This document shows positions 32,087 through 42,039 of a stretch of DNA of 64,000 nt, in pieces. The stretch is from Lentzea sp. NBRC 102530 (GTDB lineage Bacteria; Actinomycetota; Actinomycetes; Mycobacteriales; Pseudonocardiaceae). The notes under the pieces were generated by a model, which saw only the letters and a program-made list of their open reading frames with translations, was not told where the DNA came from and did no database searches. A program made the position numbers and the translations under genes. How positions within the stretch are numbered: the first letter of the stretch is position 1; every line of letters starts with the position of its first letter. The stretch is taken from contig NZ_BSTF01000018.1 in the NCBI RefSeq assembly GCF_030269365.1, positions 62,001-126,000 of the forward strand, written 5' to 3'.

Positions 32087-33262
32087 TCAGTGTGCGACAG
32101 GGCAACCGGACGGCTTGGCGGCGGGGAAGAAGTTCGGCAGCAGTTCATCCGAGTCGTAGTACCGGTGGTAGACCGGCGTCAGCCCGCCCGACACGGGTGG
32201 CACGATCCACGACCAGTCAGCGGGGCACGAACGTCCGGCCGCCTCCTCCTTCTCCAGGTGCGTCAGGAACCGCTTCGACTCCGTGTGGTGATCCGTGATC
32301 GTGACCCCGGCCTCCGCGAACGAGTGCAGGACGGCGCGGTTGAGCTCCACCAGGGCTCGATCGCGCCACAACGTCGCCTCCGACGACATGTCCAGGCCCA
32401 TTCGCTTGGCGAGGTACGGCAGCAGGTCGTAGCGGTCCGAGTCGGCCAGGTTGCGGGCGCCGATCTCGGTGCCCATGTACCAGCCGTTGAACGGCGCCGA
32501 CGGGTAGTCGATGCCGCCGATGCGCAGGCGCATGTTGCTGATCGCGGGCACGGCGTGCCACTTCACGCCCAGCGCGCCGAGCCACGGGAAGTCCGGGTGC
32601 GACAGCTTGACCTCCAGCACGTCGTCGGCGGCGATCTCGACGAGCGCGGGCTCGTGGCCCTGGCAGGTCACCATCAGCGGCAGCACGTCGAACGGGCCGC
32701 GCGTGGCCGGTGGCTTCCAGCCGCGCTGCACCGCGAGTTCGGTGAGCGCGAGGTTGCGGCCGTCGCCGAGCACGCCGCCGTCGGACCCGCGGTAGGCCGC
32801 GTAGCGGATGATCTGCTCGTTCACGATCACCGGTGCGTGCGTGCCGGGCTCCGCGGGGGCGAAGACCGTGATGACCGGGCGGATCTTGCCCTTGTTCGTC
32901 GCCACCCGCAGGTGTTCGACGCACTCCTTCGCGACGTCGGCGGGGGCGGACACCTCCCGCTGGTCGCGCACTTTCAAGCTCCGCCAGTACAGGCGCCCGA
33001 TGCAGCGGGAGCTGTTGCGCCAGGCCACGCGCGCGCCGAAGGTGAGTTCCTCGGTGGTGTGGCGGTAGGTGCCGGTCGCGGCGATCTCCGCGTGGACCTC
33101 GGCCAGCCGGGCCTCGACCGGACCGAGTTCCGGGTGCTCGGTGTGGTGCTGTCGGACGAAGTCCTCAGCCTCGGCGATGTCGATCTCGCCGGTGTTCTCG
33201 ACCTGCGCCGGGGGAAGCGCCGTGAGGGAACGGGGCATCACATCAGTCGGGACGGGGGTCAT
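32087..33262 (-). CDS. nos: Bacterial nitric oxide synthase, oxygenase domain
   Basis: A 391-residue bNOS that oxidises L-arginine to citrulline and NO. The haem-thiolate Cys87 sits in WRNSSRCIGR and the arginine-binding Glu266 in GWYMGTEIG. The DSDRYDLLPYLA and WIVPPVSGG (pterin-region) segments match bNOS. There is no reductase domain, as usual for bacteria, so a separate flavoprotein must donate electrons. Known roles are stress protection and, in thaxtomin synthesis, supply of NO for a nitrating P450. ATG 33262 was used; ATG 33238 is possible. The coupled permease may feed it. Confidence 0.95.
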   Translation of the reverse strand: MTPVPTDVMPRSLTALPPAQVENTGEIDIAEAEDFVRQHHTEHPELGPVEARLAEVHAEIAATGTYRHTTEELTFGARVAWRNSSRCIGRLYWRSLKVRDQREVSAPADVAKECVEHLRVATNKGKIRPVITVFAPAEPGTHAPVIVNEQIIRYAAYRGSDGGVLGDGRNLALTELAVQRGWKPPATRGPFDVLPLMVTCQGHEPALVEIAADDVLEVKLSHPDFPWLGALGVKWHAVPAISNMRLRIGGIDYPSAPFNGWYMGTEIGARNLADSDRYDLLPYLAKRMGLDMSSEATLWRDRALVELNRAVLHSFAEAGVTITDHHTESKRFLTHLEKEEAAGRSCPADWSWIVPPVSGGLTPVYHRYYDSDELLPNFFPAAKPSGCPVAH

Positions 33263-33444: not shown

Positions 33445-34515
33445 TCAGTTCACCACTGGGTTCGACCCGATCGAGTGAACTTGCGGCACCTCCCACGAGG
33501 AGAAGCGCGTCATCCCCTGAATTGCCAAGGAAGGTGGCAACACGCGGAACGCGAAGTCGCGCAGCGCCAAGGCGATCGGCGACCGCATCTCGATGCCGAA
33601 CTTCCCCGCCATCCGCGAGCCCTTCCACACCGACCGCGTGCGCGGACGGCGCACAGCGTCGTACCGGGCCAGATCACCACCCACCGCGGCCAGCGTCACG
33701 GCGTCCTCCAGCGCCATGCAGGCGCCCTGCCCGAGGTACGGCGTCATCGCGTGCGCCGCGTCGCCGAGCAACGCCACCCGCCCCCGCACGAACGTCGGCA
33801 GCAACGGCAACTGGTAGATGTCGTGCCGGATGACGTCCTGAGTCGTGGACACCAGTTCCGGCAACGGATCGTGCCAGTCCGCGAACAGCTCCACCGGGTC
33901 GAGTCGAGCGTCAGCGGGAGCGACGCACGCGACGTACCAGCACACCCGGCCGTCCCCGAGGGGCAGGATCCCCGCCTCCCCACCGGGACCGAGCGTCTGC
34001 GAGATCGGCAGGTCGAACGGCCCCGGCGCCACCCCGCGCCACGCCGTCGCCCCCGCGTACTCCGGTCCGCGGGCCTCCGGGAACAACTCCGCGCGCAACC
34101 GGCTGTTGATGCCGTCGGCCGCCACCACGAGATCCGCGTCCAACTCGTCCACACGAGTCACCTCGGCGTCGTTGAACAGCACCGACGACGGCAACGCCCG
34201 CAGCAGTACGCCGTGCAGATCGGCGCGGTGCATCGCGATCACCTTCTCCTGCCCCACGTCCGGCAGATGCACGAGCCAGCGCCCGTCCTGACGCCGCACC
34301 CCACCGGACACGCGGGGCGTGCCGAGCCGCCGGATCTCGTCGGAGACCCCCATCCACTCCAGCGCGCGCATCGCGTTCGGCATCACGCCCACGCCGGCGC
34401 CGATCTCCCCGAACGCCGCCGCGCGTTCGCGGACCTCGACCTCCCAGCCGACCCGGCGCAACGACACCGCCGCCGCCAGCCCTCCGATGCCGCCGCCCAC
34501 CACGATCGCCTTCAT
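33445..34515 (-). CDS. FAD-dependent aromatic monooxygenase
   Basis: A 356-residue class A flavoprotein monooxygenase. It shows the dinucleotide motif VVGGGIGGLAAA (about 5-16), RADLHGVLLRAL, VAADGINSRLR and the second FAD motif GDAAHAMTPYLGQGACMALEDA (about 265-285). Relatives include salicylate, 6-hydroxynicotinate and zeaxanthin epoxidase types as well as antibiotic-inactivating enzymes such as the tetracycline and rifamycin monooxygenases; the sequence does not decide between them. It diverges from a TetR gene across a region with three operator palindromes, which probably gives substrate-inducible expression. Confidence 0.9.
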   Translation of the reverse strand: MKAIVVGGGIGGLAAAVSLRRVGWEVEVRERAAAFGEIGAGVGVMPNAMRALEWMGVSDEIRRLGTPRVSGGVRRQDGRWLVHLPDVGQEKVIAMHRADLHGVLLRALPSSVLFNDAEVTRVDELDADLVVAADGINSRLRAELFPEARGPEYAGATAWRGVAPGPFDLPISQTLGPGGEAGILPLGDGRVCWYVACVAPADARLDPVELFADWHDPLPELVSTTQDVIRHDIYQLPLLPTFVRGRVALLGDAAHAMTPYLGQGACMALEDAVTLAAVGGDLARYDAVRRPRTRSVWKGSRMAGKFGIEMRSPIALALRDFAFRVLPPSLAIQGMTRFSSWEVPQVHSIGSNPVVN

Positions 34516-34525
34516 CGCATCCTCC

Positions 34526-34570
34526 TCTACAGATGTAGAAGACTCTACGCCTGTAGACTACAGCTGTAGA
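34526..34570. promoter_or_regulatory. Three palindromic operators between monooxygenase and TetR genes
   Basis: Three related 14-mers lie in 45 nt: TCTACAGATGTAGA (34526-34539), TCTACGCCTGTAGA (34544-34557) and ACTACAGCTGTAGA (34557-34570). The core CTACAGCTGTAG of the third is a perfect palindrome; the others keep CTAC and GTAG arms. Centre spacings are 18 and 13 nt. They almost fill the gap between the two divergent start codons, so the TetR product should control both genes. Confidence 0.8.
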
Positions 34571-34588
34571 GAGAGATGGGGGCCACAG

Positions 34589-35125
34589 GTGCGCAAAGAC
34601 CTCATCACCGACGCCGCGATCAAGCTCGTGGCCGCCCAGGGCATGCGCGGCCTCACCCATCGCGCGGTCGACCGCGAGGCAGGCCTGCCGGAGGGTTCGA
34701 CCAGCGCTTACTTCCGCACGCGCAAGGCCTTGATCGAGGGGTTCGTGGCGCGGCTGGCCGAGCAGGAACGCCTCGACGTCGCGCCGGATCCGGACGACGT
34801 CGCCGGCAGCATCGCGAGGACGCTCGACAGCTGGCTCGTGGAACGCGACCGCACGCTCGCCCGGTACGCGGCGATGCTCGAGGCGACGCACCACCCCGAA
34901 CTGAAGTCGATCATGGCCCACTCCCCGCGCGAGCAGGCCACGGCGCTCGCGGAACTGCTGGGCCACGAGGACCCCGAACGGGCGGGCGCGCACTTCACCG
35001 CGTTCCTCGAAGGCCTGCTCTTCTACCGGCTCGTCGGCGGCGGCAGCACGGTCGGCCCGACGCCCGGCACCGAGGAGAGCGTCCGGGACCTCACCGCGGC
35101 CGTCGAAAAGGCGTTGCGACCGTAG
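34589..35125 (+). CDS. TetR family transcriptional regulator
   Basis: A 178-residue repressor. The DNA-binding helices are in ITDAAIKLVAAQGMRGLTHRAVDREAG and STSAYFRTRKALIEGF; the C-terminal domain (PREQATALAELLGHEDPERAGAHF) is the ligand region. GTG 34589 is preceded by GGGGG at 7 nt; the frame opens far upstream into the operators. Three palindromes immediately upstream indicate autoregulation and control of the divergent monooxygenase. It ends only 14 nt before the ABC-F leader ORF, so read-through from its promoter may feed the attenuator. Confidence 0.9.
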   Translation: MRKDLITDAAIKLVAAQGMRGLTHRAVDREAGLPEGSTSAYFRTRKALIEGFVARLAEQERLDVAPDPDDVAGSIARTLDSWLVERDRTLARYAAMLEATHHPELKSIMAHSPREQATALAELLGHEDPERAGAHFTAFLEGLLFYRLVGGGSTVGPTPGTEESVRDLTAAVEKALRP

Positions 35126-35139
35126 GTACCGTGGGTTTC

Positions 35140-35172
35140 ATGGGATTCGGGTACGGGGTCTTCTACCTCTGA
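35140..35172 (+). CDS. 10-residue leader peptide upstream of the ABC-F gene
   Basis: ATG 35140 opens a 10-codon ORF (MGFGYGVFYL) ending in TGA at 35170-35172, two nucleotides before a strong terminator-like hairpin. An in-frame GTG at 35131 would add MGF in front. Its position between the TetR stop and the hairpin is the classic layout of ribosome-mediated attenuation, in which an antibiotic-stalled ribosome on the leader allows read-through into a resistance gene. The aromatic- and Gly-rich composition could favour stalling. Translation is not proven. Confidence 0.6.
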   Translation: MGFGYGVFYL

Positions 35173-35174
35173 TC

Positions 35175-35205
35175 CAGGACGTGTGCCTCCGCGCAACACG
35201 TCCTG
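35175..35205 (+). terminator. Attenuator hairpin upstream of ABC-F
   Basis: A perfect 10-bp stem CAGGACGTGT / ACACGTCCTG with an 11-nt loop is followed by ATTTCGCG. It starts two nucleotides after the leader ORF stop and ends 27 nt before the ABC-F start. It is a candidate conditional terminator. I could not define a competing antiterminator with confidence by eye. Confidence 0.7.
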
Positions 35206-35232
35206 ATTTCGCGTACCCAAAAGAGGATCCCC

Positions 35233-36828
35233 GTGCGTTCGCATGTTCATTTGACGACCCAAGACCTCACCAAGGGCTATGAGGCCGGGCCCGTCGTCGA
35301 CGGCATCTCCCTGACCGTCTCCGCGGGCCAGCGCCTCGGCGTCATCGGCGAGAACGGCCGCGGCAAGACCACCCTCCTCCGGCTGCTGGCCGACGACCTC
35401 GTGCCGGACCAGGGAACTGTCACCCGGCACGGTTCGTTGAGCCTGGTGCAACAGGAAATGCCTTTCCACCAAGGCGAAACCGTGGGGGACCTGCTGTCCG
35501 AGGCGCTGCGCGAGAGCCGTGCCGCACTGTCCGAACTGGACGGTGCGGCCGAGCCGTTCGACGAGCGGCGCTACACCGAGGCGTTGGCGCACGCCGAGAA
35601 CATCGAGGCCTGGGACGCCGAACGGCGTGCCGACATCGCCCTCAAAGCACTCGACGCCGACCACGACCGGGCGACGGAACTCGCGCGGCTCAGCGTGGGC
35701 CAGCGCTACCGGGTCAGGCTCGCGTGCCTGCTCGCCGAACGCGCCGACGTGCTGCTGCTCGACGAACCGACGAACCACCTCGACGCGGGCGCACTCACGT
35801 TCCTCACCGAACGCCTGCGCCGGCACCACGGCGTCGTCGTGCTGGTGAGCCACGACCGCACGTTGCTCGACGACGTCTGCACGCAGCTGCTCGACCTCGA
35901 CCCGACCCCGGACGGCGAGGTGCACCTGCACGGCGGCGGCTACCAGGCGTTCAAGGAGGCGAAACACGCCGAGCGCCAGCGCTGGGAGCAGCGGTTCGCC
36001 CAGGAGGAGGCCGAGCACGACGAGCTGACCGACAAGGTCGAACGCGCCCAGTCCCGACTGAAGGACAACTGGCGGCCGCCGAAGGGCGCGTTCAAGCACA
36101 AGCGCAGCACCCGTGCGGCGAACAAGATGCGCAACGTCGCACGGAGGCTGGAGGAGCTGGACGACCAGAGACTGGACGCTCCCCCACCGCCGTTGCGCTT
36201 CATGCCGCCGGAGTTGGAGGCGAGCGGCGACCTGCTGCACGCCACCCCGCTCGAAGTACCCGGCCGGGTGCGCCTGACCGAGCCGATCTCGCTCAGCGCG
36301 GGCGAGAAGCTGCTGGTCACCGGAGCGAACGGGGCGGGCAAGTCGACGTTGCTGAACGTCCTCGCCGGCCGTATCACCCCGGTTCACGGCACGGTGCACC
36401 ACGTCGGCGAGGTCGCGTTGCTGGCCCAGGAGTCGGTGTTCGAGAACGAGGACGCCACCGCCCGGCAGTTGTGCCCGCGGGTGGAGGACCTCGGTCTGCT
36501 CAGCGGAACGGACCTCGCCCGCCCGGTCGCCCGGCTGTCCACCGGGCAACGACGGCGGCTGGAACTCGCGATCCTGCTCAGCGGCTCCCCACACGTGCTG
36601 CTGCTGGACGAACCGACCAACCACCTGTCGATCGCCCTGGTCGACGAGCTGACCGAGGCGCTGCACCAGACCAGGGCGGCGGTGGCCGTCGCGACGCACG
36701 ACCGGCGGATGCGGACAGATTTCGGGTCGTGGCGGTCCGTGACCCTGAATTCACCTTCACGGAGTCATGAAACTTCTGTAGCTTCAGAAGTAGGTCCTCT
36801 GCTGAGCACTGGGAGGTGTGCGAGATGA
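35233..36828 (+). CDS. ABC-F ATPase, probable antibiotic resistance type
   Basis: A 531-residue soluble protein with two ATPase domains and no membrane segments. Domain 1 has Walker A GENGRGKT (39-46), signature LSVGQ and LLLDEPTNHLD. A charged, helical linker (about 240-320) follows. Domain 2 has GANGAGKST, LSTGQRRRLELA and LLLDEPTNHLS. ABC-F proteins of this kind act at the ribosomal E site and can dislodge macrolides, lincosamides, streptogramins or pleuromutilins; housekeeping members also exist. The leader ORF and hairpin upstream favour an inducible resistance role. GTG 35233 has AAGAGGA 5 nt upstream. The stop overlaps the P450 ATG by 4 nt. Confidence 0.9.
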   Translation: MRSHVHLTTQDLTKGYEAGPVVDGISLTVSAGQRLGVIGENGRGKTTLLRLLADDLVPDQGTVTRHGSLSLVQQEMPFHQGETVGDLLSEALRESRAALSELDGAAEPFDERRYTEALAHAENIEAWDAERRADIALKALDADHDRATELARLSVGQRYRVRLACLLAERADVLLLDEPTNHLDAGALTFLTERLRRHHGVVVLVSHDRTLLDDVCTQLLDLDPTPDGEVHLHGGGYQAFKEAKHAERQRWEQRFAQEEAEHDELTDKVERAQSRLKDNWRPPKGAFKHKRSTRAANKMRNVARRLEELDDQRLDAPPPPLRFMPPELEASGDLLHATPLEVPGRVRLTEPISLSAGEKLLVTGANGAGKSTLLNVLAGRITPVHGTVHHVGEVALLAQESVFENEDATARQLCPRVEDLGLLSGTDLARPVARLSTGQRRRLELAILLSGSPHVLLLDEPTNHLSIALVDELTEALHQTRAAVAVATHDRRMRTDFGSWRSVTLNSPSRSHETSVASEVGPLLSTGRCAR

Positions 36829-38039
36829 CCGAACTGATCTCCGAGAAACTGCCCACGACGCGCCAGACCCCGTTCGACCCGCCGGCCGAGGTCACGGCCA
36901 TCCGCGAGCAGGCCCGCGTCAGCAGGCTGAAGTTCTCGGACGGCCACCTCGGCTGGCTGGTCACCGGCCACCACCAGGTGCGCGAGATCCTGGGAAGCCC
37001 GAAGTTCAGCAACCGCCCGGAGAACCACCACCTGCTCGACGTGCGCTTCCAGGGCGATCTGCCCGAGGAGAAGGACAAGCGCAAGGTCGAACCGGGCATG
37101 TTCCTGAGCCAGGACCCACCGGACCACACCCGGCTGCGCAAGATGCTGCAGGGCCAGTTCACCGTCCGGCGGATGAACCAGCTGTCCGAGTGGATCGGCC
37201 AGATCGTCGACGACCAACTGGCGCACCTGCGCACGTTCGACGGCCGCGCGGACCTCGTCAAGGAGTTCGCGATGCCGGTGCCGTCACTGGTGATCTGCGC
37301 GCTGCTCGGCGTCGGCTACGAGGAGAAGTCGCGATTCCAGGACGACACCGCGAAGCTCCTCAGCCTGGACTCGACGTTCAAGGAGGCCATGGAGGCCTTC
37401 CAACGCATCCAGGAGTTCATGCGCGAACTGGTCGCCCGCAAGAAGGAGAACCCGGGCGACGACATGATCAGCGACCTCATCGCCACGGGGGAACCCACCG
37501 ACGAGGAAGCGTCGAACATGGCGATGCTGCTGCTGATCGCCGGGCACGAGACCACGGCGAACATGCTGGGACTCGGCACGTTCACGCTGTTGCAGCACCC
37601 GGACCAGCTCAAGATCCTCAAGGACGAGCCGGGCGTCGTCGACAACGCCGTCGAGGAGCTGATGCGGTACCTGTCGATCATCCACTTCGGACCGGTGCGC
37701 ACCGCGCTGGAGGACGTGGAGATCGAGGGTCACCTCATCAGGGCCGGGGACACCGTGGTGATGCACGTGCCGACGGCCAACCGCGACCCGGAGAAGTTCC
37801 CCGGCAACCCCGAGGAGCTCGACCTGCGCAGGCCCGCGAGCGGGCACGTGGCGTTCGGGCACGGCATCCACCAGTGCCTCGGCCAGCAGCTCGCGCGCAT
37901 CGAGATGAGGATCGGGTTCGCCAAGCTGTTCCAGGAGTTCCCCGACCTCCGCCTCGACGTCGAGCCCGAGGAGGTGCCGCTGCGCACCGACATGGGGATC
38001 TACGGAGTGCACTCGTTGCCAGTAGCGTGGTCGTCATGA
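36825..38039 (+). CDS. Cytochrome P450, coupled to ABC-F
   Basis: A 404-residue soluble class I P450. The I-helix oxygen motif AGHETT is at about 239-244, ExxR in EELMR, and haem ligand Cys351 in FGHGIHQCLG. An aromatic ring-oxidation or macrolactone hydroxylation role is typical of such actinomycete enzymes; substrate is not deducible. ATG 36825 overlaps the ABC-F stop (ATGA), with GGGAGG upstream at 36809. Its stop overlaps the ferredoxin ATG. Placement in an attenuator-controlled ABC-F operon suggests that it oxidises the same drug, which is inference. Confidence 0.93.
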   Translation: MTELISEKLPTTRQTPFDPPAEVTAIREQARVSRLKFSDGHLGWLVTGHHQVREILGSPKFSNRPENHHLLDVRFQGDLPEEKDKRKVEPGMFLSQDPPDHTRLRKMLQGQFTVRRMNQLSEWIGQIVDDQLAHLRTFDGRADLVKEFAMPVPSLVICALLGVGYEEKSRFQDDTAKLLSLDSTFKEAMEAFQRIQEFMRELVARKKENPGDDMISDLIATGEPTDEEASNMAMLLLIAGHETTANMLGLGTFTLLQHPDQLKILKDEPGVVDNAVEELMRYLSIIHFGPVRTALEDVEIEGHLIRAGDTVVMHVPTANRDPEKFPGNPEELDLRRPASGHVAFGHGIHQCLGQQLARIEMRIGFAKLFQEFPDLRLDVEPEEVPLRTDMGIYGVHSLPVAWSS

Positions 38040-38227
38040 AGATCTCCGTCGACCAGACGAAGTGCTGTGGTTCGGGAATGTGCGTTTTGACCGACCCGGA
38101 CCTGTTCGACCAGAGCGAGGACGACGGCACCGTCGTGCTGCTGCAGGAGAATCCGGACGCCGAGCACGAAGCGGGCGCGAAGGAGGCGGCGGGGCTCTGC
38201 CCTGCCGGAGCGATCACGATCAGCTGA
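38036..38227 (+). CDS. [3Fe-4S] ferredoxin, P450 partner
   Basis: A 63-residue ferredoxin typical of actinomycete P450 partners. Cluster ligands are Cys10, Cys16 and Cys55 (TKCCGSGMC and LCPAGA), with Gly or another residue where a fourth Cys would sit, so a [3Fe-4S] cluster is expected. An extra Cys11 is present. The ATG overlaps the P450 stop by 4 nt. It should deliver electrons to that P450; no ferredoxin reductase lies in the window. Confidence 0.95.
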   Translation: MKISVDQTKCCGSGMCVLTDPDLFDQSEDDGTVVLLQENPDAEHEAGAKEAAGLCPAGAITIS

Positions 38228-39111: not shown

Positions 39112-42039
39112 TCAGGACGTCGCCAGGCGGAGCTCGTCGACCTCCGCCTGGAACCCGGCCGCCGTCAGGGTTTCCTCGGCCTGCCGCCAGTGCTCGCGGG
39201 CCTCCTCGGCACGCCCGCAGCGGTCCAGGGCGTTGCCGAGCACCCGCAGCGAACGGCCGAACTCGGGCGGGGAGCCCATTTCACGCGCCTGCTCCAGGGC
39301 GAGGGACGCGAGCCGCAACGCCTCCTCGGGTGCGGCGGCGAGCCCGGACCGCAGGCGCCACACCCAGATGCGGCCCTGCCGGTCGTCGTGCTCCTCGAAG
39401 AACTCCCAGGCCTGCCGCAGCTGTTCCTCCGCGGGCTCGTTCTGCCCCGAGCGCACCAGGGTGTCCGCGAGGAACAGCCGGATGTTGGCCGCGAGGTCCG
39501 GGTCGCCGAGCTTCTGCGCGGCCGCGAGCGACGAGCGCAGGAAAGCCGCGGACTCGTCCAGTTCGCCGGTGAACTGGTGCAGGCGCCCCAGTTCCAGCGT
39601 CGCCATCAGCTCGCTCTGCTCGTCGCCGAGCCGGCCCGCGAGGCGCCGGGCCCGTTCCAGGTACTGCTGTGCGGCGGCGAGTCCGCCTGCCCGGCGTTCG
39701 ATGGCGCCCAACGAGCAGAGCACCTCGATCTCGCCGTGCGAGTTGCTCGCCGCGACGAACCGTTCCATGGCTTCCCGATGTGCCGCACGGGCTTCCAGGG
39801 ACCGGCCGCTCCACTCGTGCATCCAGCCCGTGCCGTACCAGGCGTAGGCCTCGCCCCAGACGTCACCGGCCTCGACGAAACCCTGCTGCGCGGCCTGGAA
39901 GTCGGCCGACGCGGCGGCGTAGTCGTGCAACCGGGCCCGCAGGATTCCGCGCTGCTGGAACAACACCGGCCTGCGGTCGGCGGGCGCACACGTCAGCCCC
40001 AGCGCGTTGATCTGCTCCCAGTCGTCGAACCGGGCGCGCAGGTCGCAGAACGCGGCGGAGCGGATCGCGAGCTCGGCGGCCAGCGAGCCGAGGCCGAGCG
40101 CGGCGGCCTGCGTGATCACGGCGTGGATGTTCTGCCACTCCGCGTCGAACCACTCGGCGGCGTCGCCGAGGTCGAACCGTTCCAGCGCCAGGGGTTCGAG
40201 CCGCAGGCCCTGGTGCGGCAGTTCGACGTCCGCGCGCATCGCCAGCTCGAGCCACTGCTCGAACAACGCCTTCAACGCCTCGGCCGGGTCCTCCGAGGCA
40301 GCCTCGCGCCCGAACGCGCGCAGCAGGTCGTGCAGGCGATAGCGCACCTGCCCCAACGCATCGCGGCCCGCGTAGTCGACCAGCCGGGCGTCGACCAGCG
40401 CCTCGACGTGGTCCTCCGCGTCGTCGAGATCGAGGCCCAGCAACGGGGACGCCACCCAGGCCGGGAAGTCCGGCGTGTCCACCAGCGACAGCAGCCGGAA
40501 CGCCGTGCGGTGCGACTCGTCCAGGCCGTCGTAGCTCAACGCGAGCGAGGCCCGCACGTCGAGGTCGCCCAGCGACAGCTCGTCGAACCGGCGCCGTTCG
40601 TCGGACAACCGCCCGGCGAGCTTCGAGAGCTGCCAGTGCGGCCGCGCCACCAGCCGGGCCGCCGCCACCCGCAACGCGAGCGGCAGGCTGCCGCAGTACG
40701 TCACGATCTGCTGCGCCGCAACGGGTTCGGCGGCGCACCGGGCCTCACCGACGGCGGCCCGCAGCAACGCCAGCGCGTCCGGCGAGGGCAGCACGTCGAG
40801 CGGCACGACGTGCGCCGCCTCCAGCCCTGCCAGCGCGGCCCGCGAGGTCACCAGCGCCGCACCCGACGTGGTCCCCGGCAGCAACGGGCGGACCTGCGCC
40901 TCGTTCACCGCGTTGTCCAGCACGACCAGGATCTTCCGGTCCGACAGCAGGTCGCGGTACAGGTCGACCCGATCCTCCACGGTGGACGGGATCGCACCAC
41001 CGGACACGCCCAGCCCGCGCAGCAACCGGTCGAGCGCCGCGGCGGGTTCGACGGGCTTCTGCTCGCCCCCGCGCAGGTTCAGGTACAGCTGGCCGTCCGG
41101 GAACGCGTCCCGCACGAGGTGGGCGCAGTGCACGGCCAACGAGGTCTTGCCGACGCCACCGGGCCCGGTGATCGTCCACGTCCCGCCGGCCCGCAACCCG
41201 GCCGTGAGCCGCACGACCTCCGCGGCCCGGCCCGAGAAGTCACCGACGGCGGGCGGCAGCCACGACGGTCCCGTGCCGGCGGCGACGACCGGTGCGGACG
41301 ATCCCGCCAGCACCTCCATGTGCAGCGCGCGCAGTTCGGCGTTCGGGTCGATGCCGAGCTCGTCGGCGAGCACGTCGCTCGCGCGCCGGAACACGTCCAG
41401 CGCCTGCGCCTGCTGGCCGGTGCGGTGCAGGGCGAGCATCAGCTGGTACCAGAAGCGTTCGCGCAGCGGGTGTTCCGTGACCAGGGACCGCAGTTCGTCG
41501 ACGACCTGGTCGTGCCGGCCGAGCTGGAGTTCGGCGTCGTTGCGCCGTTCCAGCACCTCCCAGCGCTGCTCGTTGAGGCGCTGCACGTCGGTCTGCTCCA
41601 TGCGCAGCGACGACACCTGGTCCAGGGCCGGTCCGCGCCACAGGGCGGCCGCCTCGCCGAGCAGGCGCGCCTCGGTCTCCAGGTCCGGCGCGCGCCGGGC
41701 CTCGGCCCGCAACCGCTGGAACGTCAGCAGGTCGAGCTGGTCGTCCTCGACGTGGATCGAGTAGCCGGTCGGCCACGTGCGGACGAGCTTGCGGTCGGCC
41801 AGGTCGTCCAGCGACTGTCTCAACCGCATGACATATGTCTGCAAGGTCGCGCGCGCCGCACCTGAAGGCTCATCGCCCCAGAGGTGTTCCATCAGCTCGT
41901 ACGACGACACCGGCGCGTTCGGCTTCATCAGCAACGCGGCGAGCAGCACGCGTTGCTTGGCAGAACGCAGCTCCACGACCCGTCCGGAGTCGATGACCTG
42001 CAACGACCCGAGAACCCTGAACCCCCACCGGCGCTGCAT
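39112..42039 (-). CDS. AfsR/SARP-family transcriptional regulator with NB-ARC and TPR
   Basis: A 975-residue regulator. An OmpR-type DNA-binding domain (about 1-95, FRVLGSLQVIDSGRVVELRSAKQRVLLAAL) and BTAD (about 96-245) define a SARP. An NB-ARC ATPase follows with Walker A GPGGVGKTS (292-300) and KILVVLDNAVNEAQVRPLLPG, then a long TPR region (about 600-975). This is the layout of AfsR, which activates secondary metabolism. Such regulators often act on nearby clusters; candidates are the P450 sets or the lanthipeptide operon, but no target is proven. It lies downstream of a TPR gene on the same strand. Confidence 0.93.
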   Translation of the reverse strand: MQRRWGFRVLGSLQVIDSGRVVELRSAKQRVLLAALLMKPNAPVSSYELMEHLWGDEPSGAARATLQTYVMRLRQSLDDLADRKLVRTWPTGYSIHVEDDQLDLLTFQRLRAEARRAPDLETEARLLGEAAALWRGPALDQVSSLRMEQTDVQRLNEQRWEVLERRNDAELQLGRHDQVVDELRSLVTEHPLRERFWYQLMLALHRTGQQAQALDVFRRASDVLADELGIDPNAELRALHMEVLAGSSAPVVAAGTGPSWLPPAVGDFSGRAAEVVRLTAGLRAGGTWTITGPGGVGKTSLAVHCAHLVRDAFPDGQLYLNLRGGEQKPVEPAAALDRLLRGLGVSGGAIPSTVEDRVDLYRDLLSDRKILVVLDNAVNEAQVRPLLPGTTSGAALVTSRAALAGLEAAHVVPLDVLPSPDALALLRAAVGEARCAAEPVAAQQIVTYCGSLPLALRVAAARLVARPHWQLSKLAGRLSDERRRFDELSLGDLDVRASLALSYDGLDESHRTAFRLLSLVDTPDFPAWVASPLLGLDLDDAEDHVEALVDARLVDYAGRDALGQVRYRLHDLLRAFGREAASEDPAEALKALFEQWLELAMRADVELPHQGLRLEPLALERFDLGDAAEWFDAEWQNIHAVITQAAALGLGSLAAELAIRSAAFCDLRARFDDWEQINALGLTCAPADRRPVLFQQRGILRARLHDYAAASADFQAAQQGFVEAGDVWGEAYAWYGTGWMHEWSGRSLEARAAHREAMERFVAASNSHGEIEVLCSLGAIERRAGGLAAAQQYLERARRLAGRLGDEQSELMATLELGRLHQFTGELDESAAFLRSSLAAAQKLGDPDLAANIRLFLADTLVRSGQNEPAEEQLRQAWEFFEEHDDRQGRIWVWRLRSGLAAAPEEALRLASLALEQAREMGSPPEFGRSLRVLGNALDRCGRAEEAREHWRQAEETLTAAGFQAEVDELRLATS

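Follow-up and report, generated by a model that had tools for sequence, protein, structure and literature searches.

We analysed a 64,000-nucleotide (nt) stretch of DNA from Lentzea sp. NBRC 102530 (contig NZ_BSTF01000018.1), which we call the window and whose positions serve as coordinates, with regard to a very short upstream open reading frame (uORF) in front of a gene for an ABC-F ATPase, and to the cytochrome P450 and ferredoxin genes that follow it. In order, the locus holds a flavin adenine dinucleotide (FAD) monooxygenase gene on the minus strand, a TetR gene, the leader uORF, a hairpin, and the ABC-F, P450 and ferredoxin genes, with the following features at its core.

35140..35172, plus strand: leader uORF ATGGGATTCGGGTACGGGGTCTTCTACCTCTGA = MGFGYGVFYL*, 10 codons, UGA stop
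35175..35205, plus strand: hairpin with a 10-bp stem (35175-35184 / 35196-35205), candidate terminator or pause
35233..36828, plus strand: ABC-F ATPase gene, 531 amino acids, GTG start, two LLLDEPTNHL motifs
36825..38039, plus strand: cytochrome P450 gene, 404 amino acids, Pfam p450 match, heme-ligand motif FGHGIHQCLGQQLAR
38036..38227, plus strand: single-cluster ferredoxin gene, 63 amino acids, probably of the [3Fe-4S] type from its C-x5-C...CP pattern

This confirms, in window coordinates, what an earlier note on this DNA had described: a 10-codon reading frame, a hairpin and an ABC-F/P450/ferredoxin series, in which the ABC-F/P450 and P450/ferredoxin junctions are both ATGA overlaps. The 5' base of the hairpin lies 2 nt past the leader stop. 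Its loop is 11 nt long and it was not listed by a terminator scan that accepts loops of 3-8 nt only, while an Rfam scan of the window reported only two tRNAs at gathering score. The best NCBIfam model for the ABC-F protein was TlrC/CarA/OleB/SrmB (NF000171), at 326 bits and below the 800-bit cut-off, and ten of its relatives scored 268-441 bits on the same model; on the ribosomal protection-like ABC-F model (NF000355) the window protein reached 315 bits, below the 380-bit cut-off.

We identified the same arrangement throughout the genus. From 21 named loci five weak ones (L018-L022) were dropped, leaving 16 (15 from Lentzea and one labelled Nocardia sp. NRRL S-836) with ABC-F proteins 83-91% identical, and all 16 share the gene order of the window. 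We also placed 24 genomes in the window's genus, which we take to be Lentzea; the two counts overlap and are not independent, and L015 and G313 are apparently the same contig. A 135-nt leader region was present in 24/24 of these genomes, as were the P450 (24/24) and the ferredoxin (24/24), at adjoining coordinates and with the ABC-F gene between. The leader peptide reads MGFGYGVFYL in 22 of the 24, the exceptions being one G4W and one Y5H change, and the 33 leader nt are identical in 21. For the genome G315, whose ABC-F protein is 71% identical, 147 of 353 same-residue codons were changed, while the 9 degenerate leader codons were all unaltered (P about 0.008); for G313 the result was weaker (110/413 codons changed, P about 0.06). 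As the conservation within the genus is at the level of nucleotides, selection on DNA, RNA and peptide is indistinguishable there. An exact-form pattern of the leader was discarded as evidence: it matched 3/298 genomes of the order, all in the window's genus, but its reversed form, used as a control, matched just as often (3 hits, elsewhere), and the count by itself says nothing.

To place the leader in a wider family, ABC-F relatives were sought in 120 genomes of the same family, where 74 matched at 1e-80, in 246 genomes of the class, where 15 did so at 1e-115, and in 100 genomes of another family, with 21 at 1e-120. The search of the family listed 109 places, of which 38 were taken with wide flanks (ranks 6-40 and 42-44) and five Lentzea places narrowly, and two Lentzea loci were added from the genus-wide search with the leader region. 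Further uORFs were identified before related ABC-F genes, among them MVPPFFVFYL, MGSPFGVFYL, MCLGFAVYYL, MQQLLFL, MQYLYFL, MHLYFL and VHLPLYL. A scan for TAnnnT, a spacing of 6-7 nt, ATG or GTG, and 5-12 codons ending in [FYLM][FY][LV]-stop matched 34 of 52 non-Lentzea loci. On the opposite strand it matched 0/52, and over 200 rounds of shuffling the mean was 0.00 loci per round; the C-terminal pattern of the scan had been shaped on part of these 52 loci after they were seen. Applied without change to 13 previously unseen loci of another family, the scan matched 8, and of the other five, four have basic-residue leaders (MARGIWSQKIRSAR, VYAQTASTAAAMRPWTRA, VLTASMRLRFRA, VFTASLRLRPRA) and one has none. 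These basic-residue leaders come from a looser scan run without a control, in which some related ABC-F leaders contain Arg/Lys-X-Arg/Lys (e.g. MLIQSMRLRTRR, VLTASMRLRFRA) and form a second leader class. Four relatives at 61-62% identity all have a leader, and one of them (L082) is without the P450. A phylum sample added no new locus (3/396 genomes matched). Loci of the kind that the earlier note had named as speaking against its reading, with an ABC-F gene and neither leader nor P450, do occur among distant relatives: no uORF was found even in the looser scan at 7/65 loci (L109, L111, L116-L118, L158, L175), none of which has a P450 directly downstream, the downstream view being limited to 1.5 kb for L158 and L175.

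Scan leaders in other genera mostly lie 139-212 nt from the ABC-F gene, and 32 of the 34 end in UGA. Their conserved hydrophobic residues stand directly before the stop, as those of an MsrDL-type leader would. The peptide MHLYFL is written with four codon sets across six loci, indicating selection on the peptide. It is very improbable, in our judgement, that the conserved stretch is promoter DNA or a regulator site only, with an incidental reading frame: the nucleotide-level conservation within the genus would suit such a stretch, but across genera the DNA changes while the C-terminal residues and the stop persist, one peptide is encoded by synonymous codon sets, and the class of leader follows the ABC-F tree.

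This last point was examined on two trees. The first holds 55 ABC-F proteins, of which the 37 with aromatic leaders lie on one side of a single branch (support 100/100; seven rows are unlabelled), and one change of leader class suffices. Similarly, in a FastTree of 68 rows, the basic-leader clade is free of aromatic leaders and the main aromatic clade free of basic ones. As far as these protein and leader comparisons reach, leader type follows the ABC-F tree.

We additionally noted three particular ABC-F genes. The genome of the window has a second one (L116; G000:C2:225608-227149), 47% identical and in a distant group, for which neither leader class was detected. At L102 (G076) the ABC-F frame is broken after 264 residues in the assembly, through gene decay or sequencing error. 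In another genus (L110:5624-6835), there is a 4-nt overlap between the ABC-F gene and a gene whose product has a small-methyltransferase (MTS/PrmA-like) domain.

Two promoter-like features precede the leader.

35127..35132, plus strand: -10-like box TACCGT (TAnnnT), 7 nt before the leader ATG
35105..35118, plus strand: candidate WhiB7-type element, with GAAAA (35105-35109), 3 nt, and a -35-like GTTGCG (35113-35118); role presumed

With a TAnnnT box 6-7 nt ahead of the uORF, transcription would start at or near the start codon, and the leader would therefore be read from a leaderless mRNA. The candidate WhiB7-type element also codes for the C-terminus of TetR, and is kept in the genome G223 despite the loss of TetR. 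In WhiB7 promoters of M. abscessus, according to PMC10727445, an AT-rich box lies 3 nt before the -35, which the -10 follows at a distance of 13-14 or 23-24 nt. The AT box of the window is 22 nt before the -10 (21-22 nt in Lentzea and L082), and an A/T 4-mer begins 30-33 nt ahead of the -10 in 24 of 34 non-Lentzea loci, but not in the other 10; as a match of sequence, these 24 fit the longer WhiB7 spacing and the window the shorter. The likeness to the WhiB7 promoter layout is suggestive.

The locus shares features with several known systems. As in msrDL/msrD, the ABC-F gene is preceded by a very short hydrophobic leader whose stop lies close to a hairpin, and MHLYFL of the relatives equals MYLIFM of msrDL in length and matches it at L3 and F5. 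Within MsrDL (MYLIFM-stop), L3 and I4 are described as critical and Y2 as dispensable in PMC10314930. The msrDL uORF is translated from a ribosome binding site of its own and ends in UAA, whereas the window has a probable leaderless start, a UGA stop and an actinomycete host. The lmrC, tiaA and are5sc genes of Streptomyces are actinomycete ABC-F genes under uORF control, as is probable for that of the window, but they differ in being ARE5 genes; for lmrC, formation of the terminator is reported to require translation of uORF2, unlike what we propose here. ErmDL-type leaders have Arg/Lys-X-Arg/Lys in common with some related ABC-F leaders (e.g. VLTASMRLRFRA), a motif absent from the leader of the window and its group. 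The mycobacterial polycysteine uORF attenuators also use a leaderless short reading frame in actinobacteria, but are reported to respond to cysteine, not to a drug. We also drew on PMC8546547, PMC10201436, PMC10219788 and PMC13236596. In the open-access literature, we found no published description of these leader peptides or of the ABC-F/P450/ferredoxin order.

Taken with the comparisons above, this leads us to propose, with a probability of roughly 0.65, that positions 35127-35232 form a ribosome-mediated, MsrDL-like attenuator for the ABC-F gene, and that the P450-ferredoxin unit is run mainly from its own promoter. The leader-peptide attenuator before ABC-F, already put forward in the earlier note, is well supported by comparison (leader region in 24/24 genomes, scan at 34/52 loci and 8/13 unseen ones, tree), and appears to be a variant of the known ribosome-mediated ABC-F attenuators; coupled drug oxidation is weakly supported. 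What the comparisons show is the conservation of the stretch, its association with an ABC-F lineage and the position of the -10-like box; we infer the leaderless start, the stall at the stop codon, the role of the hairpin, the drug, and the level of control, transcriptional or translational.

The attenuator might work as follows. Transcription would start at the leader ATG and give a leaderless mRNA from which the uORF is read. In the absence of drug, ribosomes would complete the leader and be released at the UGA, and the hairpin would form and limit transcription as a terminator or pause, and/or the leader RNA would stay paired near the ABC-F start. With a suitable 50S-binding drug, the short peptide ending in VFYL would block termination at the UGA, and the stalled ribosome would cover the 5' arm of the hairpin (35175-35184), so that ABC-F would be expressed. 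The ribosome footprint of MsrDL, transferred to the window by position only, ends at 35182-35184. The inducer may be a macrolide, a guess by analogy with MsrDL and from the Arg/Lys-X-Arg/Lys leaders of related genes, this being a known macrolide/ketolide arrest motif according to PMC8298421.

We also considered a stall at the start codon or early in elongation, as opposed to one at the stop codon. According to PMC12421871, the are5sc and tiaA leaders of Streptomyces (MLV, MVGDDDISG) stall at the start codon, with lincosamides, streptogramin A and pleuromutilins, whereas we propose arrest at the stop for the window. In the leaders here, which have 6-10 codons, it is the C-terminal residues beside the stop that are conserved, and stalling of the are5sc and tiaA kind is in our view unlikely.

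The RNA of the leader region gives the hairpin uneven support. The window region folds better than its shuffles (z -2.34; 3/200 shuffles as good), and by position and stability the hairpin of the window would be within reach of a ribosome stalled on the leader; among relatives this is uneven. The inner 7 stem pairs are kept in 20/20 distinct sequences of the genus, with the two basal pairs broken in 8 and 6 of these and the top pair in 5. A number of observations weigh against the proposed attenuator. The hairpin tail ATTTCG is a weak U-tract. The first predicted pair falls 0-9 nt past the leader stop in 26/26 folded loci, in stretches that are GC-rich, and only 10 of the 26 predicted hairpins reach z -2 or below (range -4.3 to +0.5), so that support for the hairpin varies by lineage. 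PMC10314930 reports that a UGA stop lowered MsrDL induction, and the leaders here mostly end in UGA. On the tree, rooting on L116-L118 makes the aromatic-leader genes a grade and not a clade, in which Lentzea and its nearest relatives branch first and the basic-leader clade arises inside the aromatic set; moreover, L158 and L175 lie within the aromatic clade without a detected leader. Two further points of this kind concern the folding of the leader with regions downstream, for which a long-range helix was predicted.

35149..35155, plus strand: 5' strand of the predicted long-range helix, GGGTACG, inside the leader, pairing with 35212-35218
35212..35218, plus strand: 3' strand of the predicted helix, CGTACCC, upstream of the ABC-F Shine-Dalgarno

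In the alignment, 97% of cells are paired at this helix and 4 are unpaired; L044, whose leader carries Y5H, shows one change on both sides (UA to CG). Covariation is thin, as its 2 both-side cells were reached in 19/500 shuffles, and as the changes are too few, we dropped it as proof of structure. With the leader masked, Shine-Dalgarno pairing falls in some genomes (0.59 to 0.41 in the window) and rises in others (0.31 to 0.77 in L035).

These data bear on translational attenuation, in which the leader would sequester the Shine-Dalgarno and start of ABC-F, and a stalled ribosome would free them. This overlaps with the attenuator that we propose and differs in the level of control. It would fit the predicted pairing of leader nt 12-25 with the Shine-Dalgarno/start region (92% of cells), the helix 35149-35155:35212-35218 with its one compensatory change, and the weak U-tract; it fits less well with a release of the Shine-Dalgarno that is inconsistent among the 20 distinct sequences, a Shine-Dalgarno helix without any both-side change, and leaders that in other genera mostly lie 139-212 nt from ABC-F. 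We consider it possible, if clearly the lesser option. A purely translational switch was rejected on the inconsistent Shine-Dalgarno exposure in leader-masked folding.

We investigated the P450-ferredoxin pair separately. Pairs of CYP105-type P450s and ferredoxins are known, and the best solved relative of the window P450 is CYP105AS1; the adjacent single-cluster ferredoxin is alike in both, while in Lentzea and one further genus the pair follows immediately after an ABC-F gene. The pair has promoter features of its own.

36756..36784, plus strand: predicted P450-ferredoxin promoter TTCACG-17 nt-TAGCTT, inside the 3' end of ABC-F
36756..36771, plus strand: dyad TTCAC-N6-ATGAA within the P450 promoter

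The promoter, as TTCA(C/T)(A/G)-17-TAGCTT, is present in the window, in 16/16 named loci and in L085, L086 and L079-L081, with the variants TTCATG in L008, TAGGTT in G306 (L121) and one broken dyad arm in L080/L124. Among 30 loci with P450 homologues, taken from a longer list, the dyad TTCAY-N6-RTGAA precedes 14, and its N6/7 form precedes 16, versus a mean of 0.05 per shuffle round. Seven P450s with the N6 dyad (L126, L128-L130, L137, L140, L143) have no such ABC-F gene within 1.5 kb, two of these loci having a 26-31% similar ABC ATPase on the opposite strand. As the unit has its own conserved promoter and dyad, the latter also found at P450s without such an ABC-F gene, it is best regarded, from its sequence features, as a separate unit that ended up behind ABC-F. 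P450-ferredoxin expression would come mainly from the promoter at 36756-36784, and read-through from ABC-F, plausible because the gap between ABC-F and P450 is short, would add extra expression at most.

The earlier note had joined the ABC-F gene to a complete oxidation module, in which one drug-induced ABC-F/P450/ferredoxin transcript would provide both target protection and oxidation of the same drug. The gene order on which this rested proved fixed, in 24/24 genomes of the genus and in 3/3 genomes examined of a second genus. The P450/ferredoxin overlap recurs in 14/16 named loci, but that of ABC-F and P450 was found in only 4 besides the window, the P450 ATG lying 20-63 nt past the ABC-F stop in the other 12, and is not conserved. 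Starts between a 4-nt overlap and 63 nt past the ABC-F stop in these 16 loci would permit a joint transcript, as would those of other P450s in two further genera, 18 and 50 nt past ABC-F. Against it stand the conserved promoter and dyad of the P450-ferredoxin unit, the presence of the dyad before 14/30 homologues, seven of them away from such an ABC-F gene, and the gene order in the wider family: a P450 lies directly downstream at only 5 of 38 other family loci (L079-L081, and P450s of other types at L083 and L084), with none at 33/38. Drug-induced oxidation of the inducer by the P450 therefore finds little backing, and we think such a coupled module quite improbable. As the neighbouring P450 unit has its own promoter, gene order alone is a poor guide to co-induction.

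The recurrence of P450s was set aside as evidence of coupling, since those of L083 and L084 are of other types. The L083 enzyme resembles pentalenene oxygenase, and as it is terpene-oxygenase-like, its adjacency to ABC-F may be incidental. We also looked at 31 aromatic-leader loci that belong neither to Lentzea nor to the second genus. At 4 of them, a gene on the same strand follows within 60 nt: the two other P450s, one protein with a methyltransferase domain and one with a YjbR domain. The calls of these neighbours rest on a GC3 rule.

The dyad-plus-TGTA pattern occurs twice in the genome of the window, and a control pattern never. The second dyad (L163:1501-1525; G000:C10:211449-211473) has a MarR-family gene on one side and a DrrA-like ABC ATPase gene on the other, and the MarR-family protein is a candidate regulator of the P450 unit.

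As the inducers of actinomycete ABC-F genes are often unknown, a leader class that tracks the ABC-F tree offers a route to the inducing drug, and if our reading is true, the stop-codon arrest worked out for MsrDL would extend to leaderless actinomycete mRNAs. More tentatively, an actinobacterial family of leaderless stop-codon-arrest sensors under WhiB7-type promoters, with a global and a drug-specific gate, might control many ABC-F genes, and the sensor of Lentzea and the second genus might add read-through to the P450-ferredoxin unit's own, perhaps MarR-type, control.

Upstream of the leader, we identified the following features.

34589..35125, plus strand: TetR-family regulator gene, start placed at the GTG common to relatives
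33445..34515, minus strand: FAD-dependent monooxygenase gene, divergent
34518..34578, strand not assigned: likely TetR operator, with repeated CTACAG/CTGTAG dyads in the interval from the FAD monooxygenase gene to the TetR gene

TetR was rejected as master of the operon on the evidence of two genomes. G223 (L034 / L053) has neither TetR nor the FAD monooxygenase and yet keeps the promoter region with the leader, ABC-F, P450 and ferredoxin. Neither of the two genes was found next to the G330 locus, where the leader, ABC-F, P450 and ferredoxin are likewise retained. Further out, the conserved neighbour gene at 32087-33262 (minus strand) presumably resembles a bacterial nitric oxide synthase, NCBIfam having given no match, and SARP-like (39112-42039) and o38307 are working names that we assume for two others.

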